NCBI RefSeq assembly: GCF_014217805.1
Contig: NZ_CP055156.1
Span: forward strand, 2,114,585 to 2,178,584
Origin: Adhaeribacter swui
Lineage (GTDB): Bacteria; Bacteroidota; Bacteroidia; Cytophagales; Hymenobacteraceae
Direction of reading: 5' to 3'
Length of the DNA: 64,000 nt
Made by a program: the position numbers and the translations under genes. Position 1 is the first letter of the stretch, and each line of letters begins with the position of its first letter. Shown here piece after piece: positions 35,739-35,861 of this stretch. The notes below the pieces were generated by a model, which worked only from the letters and a program-made list of their open reading frames with translations, had not been told where the DNA came from and made no database searches.

Positions 35739-35861
35739 TTAACAGCAACAACAACACATACACCAGTTAGGGGTAGTAGCCCGGTATACAAGCGGGAATG
35801 CAGATTTAGCGGTAGTAAAAGGCTTGTTGGTAAGCCCGAAAAGGTAAAGAGAGTTTTTCAT
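35739..35861 (-). CDS. Cysteine-rich leader peptide (uORF) of metY, 40 residues
   Basis: This ORF is read directly from the minus strand: ATG at 35861 to TAA at 35739. The peptide begins [15 protein letters not shown] and ends [10 protein letters not shown], so six of the last seven residues are cysteine (codons TGT ATG TGT TGT TGT TGC TGT after TGG). It lies between the SAM riboswitch (its start is 9 nt after the P1 stem) and metY (start 103 nt beyond the stop). The ribosome would need abundant Cys-tRNA to finish it, which suggests a sensor of cysteine supply for a gene that assimilates sulfide. Cys-rich regulatory uORFs are known in actinobacteria. I do not know of a description for this one. 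Function is inferred. Confidence 0.75.

Follow-up and report, generated by a model that had tools for sequence, protein, structure and literature searches.

A Cysteine-Codon Leader ORF Behind a SAM-I Riboswitch Upstream of metY and Other Sulfur Genes in Cytophagales and Related Bacteria: a Putative Two-Input Leader

The stretch of DNA considered here (the window) comprises 64,000 nucleotides of the Adhaeribacter swui genome (contig NZ_CP055156.1, positions 2,114,585 to 2,178,584). On its minus strand, in 5' to 3' order, lie an aptamer, a short leader ORF and metY. The aptamer (35870..35971, minus strand) matches Rfam family RF00162 over the full model, 1-108, with 72.9 bits against a gathering score of 44.4. 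By its sequence it is a member of the SAM-I riboswitch family, and SAM is its putative ligand. The leader ORF (35739..35861, minus strand) has 40 codons, an ATG start 8 nt 3' of the aptamer end and a TAA stop. Its C-terminal end encodes Trp-Cys-Met-Cys5 (35742..35765), the proposed sensor codons, and the Cys5 run itself (35742-35756) reads TGT TGT TGT TGC TGT. A gap of 103 nt separates the leader stop from the start of metY, which encodes an O-acetylhomoserine sulfhydrylase of 462 codons (34247..35635, minus strand, ATG at 35635) with 85% identity to the MetY of two Adhaeribacter contigs. An earlier reading of these letters without database searches (the sequence-only reading) had placed a 40-residue minus-strand frame with this ending, running from ATG to TAA, beside an S-box-like element and before metY; frame and ending are present as described, the element is the SAM-I riboswitch, and metY is indeed the next gene after the leader ORF. 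As judged from residue motifs, a metX-like gene (33007..34044) and a homoserine-dehydrogenase-like gene (31558..32817) lie 3' of metY on the same minus strand, which makes a metY-metX-hom cluster a possible target of the leader. What we take to be the cysteinyl-tRNA synthetase gene (28738..30219) lies some 5 kb away from metY and is encoded on the opposite (plus) strand. A genome search finds a second RF00162 site in the same genome, before metH (assigned by residue motif) and without a Cys-tailed ORF.

The claim that a run of five Cys codons is extremely unlikely by chance stands for the run together with its stop and does not hold genome-wide for the bare run. The window contains a single instance of five Cys codons followed by TAA, and 0 of 100 dinucleotide shuffles contain one. 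A second Cys-codon run is found within the window at 5798-5812 on the plus strand, and (TGY)4 runs occupy 67 sites in the 6.2-Mb genome versus 29 for the reversed control, more than twofold. The sequence-only reading thus overstated how unusual a bare (TGY)4 run is. Since such runs are not exceptional genome-wide, what carries weight is that this one lies in frame behind the riboswitch and is conserved in relatives. Inspection of the loci of 30 of the 67 (TGY)4 sites and 30 of 73 (TGY)3-T-R-R sites in the same genome turned up no counterpart of similar length and position. Two ATG ORFs of 17 codons, L379 and L382, were also seen in this genome; both end in three Cys residues. A homology search with the leader peptide in 194 genomes returned its own match and two weak matches only (E 0.003 and 0.006). 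Because the peptide barely matches its relatives by homology, further loci had to be located via the riboswitch.

For the order Cytophagales, 157 RF00162 loci from 100 genomes were surveyed, the best-scoring among the matches listed and not a random sample. A Cys leader was scored where an ATG or GTG ORF of at most 100 codons starts -3 to +25 nt from the aptamer end and has at least three Cys in its last 12 residues; L268 and three duplicates (L164, L167, L172) were left out before counting. Such an ORF lies behind the aptamer at 69 of the 157 listed loci, and 52 of the 100 source genomes have at least one. The downstream gene classes are residue-motif assignments; NCBIfam searches were run for 20 representative proteins, 8 of which were compared with Pfam as well, several NCBIfam scores being under curated cut-offs, partly since the proteins are cut by the fetched stretches.

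The leader is unevenly distributed among genes. At the listed loci of the order it precedes metY in 39 of 51 cases, cysH (by motif) in 4 of 6, with the other 2 negative, and the one sulfite-reductase-like gene. It is present at 6/6 RimK-like ATP-grasp loci (L080, L100, L152, L174, L264, L269) and 7/7 APC permease loci (L076, L078, L098, L105, L114, L159, L166), three of these 13 having been checked by family search; in the window's family the genes of these two classes behind a Cys leader are candidate cysteine or thiol genes. Both NhaC-family loci carry it, as do both loci of a class (L169, L267) presumptively labelled 'M14-like', of which L267 gave no NCBIfam match. The methionine synthase gene metH has the leader at 0/40 listed loci, cystathionine gamma-synthase at 0/7, homoserine dehydrogenase at 0/4 and metX at 1/12. 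Smaller or mixed classes include TonB receptors (1/3), O-succinylhomoserine sulfhydrylase-like genes (1/4, the other three negative), genes classed as 'other' (5/11) and a gene-unassigned locus (0/1; the contig of L093 ends early, so no gene could be assigned to it). Among the 'other' genes, L096 and L173 resemble cysH by residues and L148 resembles cystathionine gamma-synthase. SAM riboswitches were also seen before a GH19 chitinase-like gene (L006) and before unassigned genes (L029, L091, L115), in each case without a Cys leader.

Grouped by pathway side, 60 of 77 sulfide/cysteine-side loci versus 1 of 63 methionine-side loci carry the leader (listed order loci; Fisher p 1.4e-22), with a grouping set after the genes were seen, 'other' and small classes omitted, and loci that are phylogenetically non-independent. 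For metY versus metH alone, p is 2e-15 among the listed loci. The sample pairs a leader locus with a metH riboswitch in 19 genomes, and in none of these does metH carry the leader. The partition is imperfect: the cysK locus (L160) is negative, and O-succinylhomoserine sulfhydrylase-like and cysH genes also provide exceptions. The 12 of 51 listed metY loci scored by this criterion as having no Cys tail belong to families f5 (6/7), f19 (3/6), f11 (2/2) and f17 (1/1). The link to sulfide- and cysteine-side genes, and the absence of the leader at 40/40 metH loci, support the cysteine input beside SAM that the sequence-only reading had proposed, although Met codons are enriched in the tails as well and the input is perhaps not cysteine only.

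A second set was drawn from a public genome collection as the best 80 of 582 relatives of the window's MetY (the named loci). A riboswitch lies upstream at 72 of these best 80 metY loci, 59 found by sequence pattern and 13 by Rfam; 20 of the 21 loci without a pattern match were tested in Rfam, and L227, with 119 nt upstream, was left out. The Cys-tail ORF is present at 64 of the 72 riboswitch-linked loci, including members of Adhaeribacter, Hymenobacter, Pontibacter, Pedobacter, Mucilaginibacter and Daejeonella as well as several MAGs of related groups. The frame and Cys run, whose loss in related genomes would have spoken against the sequence-only reading, are therefore kept in this set as at the metY loci of the order. 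Of the eight negatives, L203 and L213 have the Cys tail with a start one base beyond the limit, L183 has two Cys near the ORF end, and L230 has a terminal Cys only. Seven of the eight named loci without a detected riboswitch have nothing of the kind within 500 nt upstream of metY, two of the eight having less than 400 nt of upstream sequence; the eighth, L197, has one weak candidate ORF 486 nt upstream.

The other four negatives (L212, L229, L240, L243) are Spirosoma. Together with L067 and L113 they form a group of Spirosoma-type metY loci with no Cys run and with an ORF of 13-18 residues (MLYxxQCM...-like) behind the aptamer; L067 and L113 share a downstream stretch able to form a hairpin. 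The short ORF is perhaps a leader of another type in which Cys-Met is retained.

Beyond the order, 89 high-scoring riboswitch loci were taken from the wider phylum. Among these listed loci, metY (by motif) has a Cys leader at 0/43 outside the window's class and 0/5 inside it; for other genes the counts are 0/12 outside and 1/29 inside, the one being a cysH-like gene (L310). Elsewhere, then, this riboswitch stands before this gene with no leader between them, and the Cys leader is confined, as far as these samples go, to part of the class.

Several features indicate that the Cys run is read as codons. Runs of (TGY)3 or more lie 20-260 nt after the aptamer at 62 listed loci of the order; each of these 62 loci has a start codon 2-20 nt beyond the aptamer, and in every case the run is in frame with it. 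In the 69 leader loci of the order the start lies 3-15 nt after the aptamer, at 7-10 nt in 57 of them; it is ATG in 59 and GTG in 10, and the ORF has 23-55 codons. Over 129 distinct peptides, Cys accounts for 45.5% of the last 12 residues versus 1.3% of the peptide body. Met shows a 6.1-fold rise in this tail (128 versus 48 in the longer bodies, not counting the initiator), Trp a rise of 3.3-fold (15 residues) and Arg one of 1.5-fold, with other residues depleted. Cys is encoded by TGT 454 times and TGC 247 times and all three stops are used, which argues that codons are kept, not one fixed RNA motif. At the seven loci of the window's genus (the window, L255, L257, L259, L260, L261, L263) the ORF has 36-40 codons and a body that varies freely; Cys count and exact tail placement vary as well. 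The leader has what is expected of a leader-peptide attenuator: a short ORF before a pathway gene, conserved sensor codons and a peptide body that drifts. At the level of sequence comparison, selection on the leader codons is demonstrated, and the ORF is very probably a translated codon-sensing leader.

The tail could report the charging of Met-tRNA and Cys-tRNA jointly, given the Met enrichment and the presence of Met in the tails of 87 of 128 peptides. Mixed endings recur, for example RMRMCC in Hymenobacter, ICMCCCC in Mucilaginibacter and CMC5 in the window, and the short Spirosoma leaders retain QCM or RCM. However, 41 of the 128 leaders have no tail Met, methionine supply is already reported by SAM, and ATG-TGY may be favoured for RNA pairing. 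Joint sensing is possible, if somewhat unlikely, and a predominantly cysteine-directed sensor is the reading pursued below.

The position of the start codon places the leader within reach of the riboswitch. In the window a predicted fold extends the P1 stem to 14 pairs between 35964..35977 (5' arm, minus strand) and 35864..35877 (3' arm, minus strand), ending 2 nt before the leader ATG; its z is -2.0, and 5 of 200 shuffles fold as well or better. P1 extends beyond the Rfam ends by a mean of 2.68 pairs at leader loci (n=69) versus 0.55 at metH (n=40; Mann-Whitney p 3e-9), but also by 1.94 at loci with neither leader nor metH (n=48), so P1 length does not single out leaders. At two loci a protein gene itself starts at the leader distance, metX at +9 (L087) and an O-succinylhomoserine sulfhydrylase-like gene at +7 (L262), consistent with a riboswitch that acts on whatever ORF starts there. 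From this geometry, a formed P1 near the leader ATG should hinder the start of ribosomes. The spacing of the start codon suggests that the target of the riboswitch is the sensor, not the gene.

The distance from the leader stop to metY is 89-326 nt at 53 named loci (nine others with 604-981 nt were left out, another gene probably intervening) and 92-286 nt at 39 loci of the order; none is under 40. Gaps of 89-326 nt speak against reinitiation or direct translational coupling. In the window, single-sequence prediction gives a hairpin whose 5' arm consists of the last Cys codons and the stop (35735..35753, minus strand) and whose 3' arm lies at 35678..35695 (minus strand), with a U-rich loop between them and a mean probability of about 0.72 over pairs starting at 35735-35756. 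Pairing around the stop was profiled over many leaders against shuffles of the flanks that left the tail unchanged; a profile from whole-region shuffles was set aside because the Cys codons alter local composition. For Hymenobacter (n=17) the predicted 5' arm is again made up of the stop and the Cys codons just before it (z 7.0 at -4..+1), with the 3' arm at about +8 to +19, often followed by pyrimidine-rich RNA. For Mucilaginibacter (n=20) the hairpin starts at +8 after the stop (z 5.7), and the tail partly pairs upstream too. Both z values are inflated by the relatedness of the sequences. Over all 128 leaders, pairing at the stop site is weak (z 2.2) and the strongest signal comes from the tail pairing upstream (z about 4). 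Near the stop, leaders fold only modestly more strongly than controls, with a mean z of -1.22 for 128 leaders versus -0.76 for 40 metH loci. RNAalifold returned only 3 pairs for 16 Mucilaginibacter leaders, perhaps reflecting a poor MAFFT alignment, and no antiterminator partner was found among the leaders analysed. Taken as predictions, lineage-specific hairpins at the Cys codons or the stop are supported.

An intrinsic terminator was considered as the output and rejected: U-tract hairpins with dG <= -8 occur in 53 of 128 leaders (41%), barely above the 33% of shuffles. The longest pyrimidine run after the stop averages 9.4 versus 7.4 in shuffles, which would suit Rho without proving it.

Translational attenuation is another possible output. 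A free tail would pair with the metY start region and hide it, and a ribosome stalled at the Cys codons would keep it open. In the window, the minimum free energy fold does pair tail positions 35754-35765 with 35637-35647, a segment that closely precedes the metY ATG, and the own pair ranks at 0.05 among swapped pairs in the window and at 0.01 at L261 of the same genus. Three other loci of that genus, L255, L257 and L259, rank at 0.16, 0.36 and 0.82, however, and over 90 metY leaders the tail pairs no more strongly with its own start region than with swapped ones (Wilcoxon p 0.71), which leaves sequestration of the start codon unsupported as a general feature. The distances of 89-326 nt from leader stop to metY also stand against it. 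We consider this output unlikely.

The Cys-rich nascent peptide might instead sense copper, zinc or redox state, not the supply of Cys-tRNA. Metal binding is possible for Cys-rich ends, and the copper uORF CruR, with a RAPP arrest motif and an invariant CXXC (PMC9426467, in the portion available), shows that a regulatory uORF containing Cys can work by way of Rho. Of 128 leader peptides, 110 have Cys in CXXC spacing, but two non-Cys residues stand between the Cys in 15 of 128 only, the spacing elsewhere coming from Cys runs. The RAPP motif is found in 0 of 128, number and spacing of Cys vary widely between leaders, and the downstream genes belong mostly to sulfur metabolism, not to metal genes. 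A metal or redox sensor thus appears very doubtful. It is still harder to credit that selection keeps the (UGY)n tract for its RNA structure with the ORF incidental: tail bases are predicted to pair with their flanks in the lineage-specific hairpins, but every one of the 62 runs is in frame with the start behind the aptamer, stop codons fall at or soon after the tail, and TGT and TGC are exchanged. A chance ORF behind the riboswitch is refuted, common as (TGY)4 is genome-wide, by dinucleotide shuffles of the 230 nt after the aptamer at 73 loci, of which 81/7300 (1.1%) pass versus 64/72 named loci, and by the zero counts at the 43 outside-class metY and 40 metH loci.

The reading that we prefer is a two-input leader on the metY message, in which the SAM riboswitch gates a Cys-codon leader peptide; as a whole we think it likely. 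With SAM bound, the P1 closing stem would block the start of the leader ORF, and this gating of leader translation by SAM, which follows from the modelled geometry, is reasonably probable. With SAM low, the leader would be translated and the ribosome would reach the Cys-rich, often Cys/Met-rich, end. If charged Cys-tRNA were short, the ribosome would stall there and cover the 5' arm of the hairpin; no hairpin would then form at or behind the stop, the pyrimidine-rich RNA would be hidden, and transcription would continue into metY. A ribosome that finishes, leaves or never starts would let the leader attenuate expression, more likely via Rho or a paused polymerase than via a classical intrinsic terminator, and the partner structures of the hairpin would differ by lineage. 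Since metY should be off when SAM is high and the leader closed, an untranslated leader would mean off and only a stalled ribosome would mean on. The net logic would turn on genes of sulfide and cysteine assimilation when SAM and cysteine are both low, a sign of control that we infer from metabolic sense. Transcription attenuation with this sign has an even chance of being right.

Extended over much of Cytophagales and Sphingobacteriales, the proposal is of an RNA AND gate, a SAM aptamer enabling a Cys/Met-codon leader. Its regulon would hold metY, sulfate and sulfite reductases, permeases and uncharacterised ATP-grasp genes, and would spare methionine synthase and the cysteine-consuming cystathionine gamma-synthase. 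On balance we lean slightly towards this wider picture. A two-input leader would explain how a cell could lower methionine synthesis in response to SAM yet capture more sulfide when cysteine is short. The leader would also provide a simple sequence mark of cysteine-responsive genes where regulatory annotation is scant, and would point to APC permeases and RimK-like ATP-grasp enzymes as cysteine- or thiol-related.

Cys leader peptides of mycobacteria, the subject of a 2020 report by Canestrari et al. to judge by its title, reportedly respond to cysteine and have a leaderless start. For the cys operons of actinobacteria, leader peptides with Cys codons were proposed in 2005, with no obvious terminators and with Rho suggested (PMC1262725, as far as the available text goes). 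The likeness to the present leader lies in a short ORF with a Cys run near its stop, before sulfur genes and with no obvious terminator. The present leader differs in its phylum, in a start directly behind a SAM-I aptamer (the available part of PMC1262725 mentions no riboswitch) and in the Met codons mixed in. A separate origin with similar working is assumed. The uORFC-8-2 motif before cysS in Rhodobacterales, for which ribosome-mediated attenuation has been proposed, also shares a conserved uORF start and tandem Cys codons (PMC8632094, in part). In that motif the two Cys codons lie within a stem and an intrinsic terminator comes after it; the target is cysteinyl-tRNA synthetase, and the part of that source at hand mentions no riboswitch.

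In the Bacteroidota, a phylum of major environmental importance whose relatives of Adhaeribacter with this arrangement include many from soil and water, the excerpts of two papers make general mention of leader-peptide attenuation before amino-acid operons of Flavobacterium psychrophilum (PMC9723704) and of short ORFs within the long 5' UTRs found in Bacteroides thetaiotaomicron (PMC7366714). The accessible portions of two surveys of RNA regulation (PMC3766115, PMC2965389) contain no SAM riboswitch with a Cys-codon leader, and the open-access literature matches listed hold no prior description of one, subscription journals being mostly outside that scope. From sequence comparison, the SAM-riboswitch Cys leader is widespread and well supported, and its mechanism is one that we infer.

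Two inputs on one leader have been described elsewhere. In Salmonella mgtA, a Mg2+-sensing leader RNA and the Pro-codon short ORF mgtL attenuate one transcript (PMC6460261, in the section available); there the inputs are Mg2+ and Pro and the target is a magnesium transporter, whereas here they would be SAM and Cys, with many genes and genera and with the ORF behind the aptamer. In Mycobacterium tuberculosis metE and ppe2, B12 riboswitches interact with uORF translation on one leader; the ppe2 uORF overlaps the gene start, in contrast to the gaps of 89-326 nt here, and the available part of that account describes no sensing through amino-acid codons (PMC11260477). Compared with other SAM-I riboswitches (S box, RF00162) the aptamer is alike, and here the output would pass through a peptide-coding leader, not directly onto a gene or terminator. 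Leader-peptide attenuation and riboswitches are usually seen as alternatives; in this leader they would act in series on one message, across many genera.
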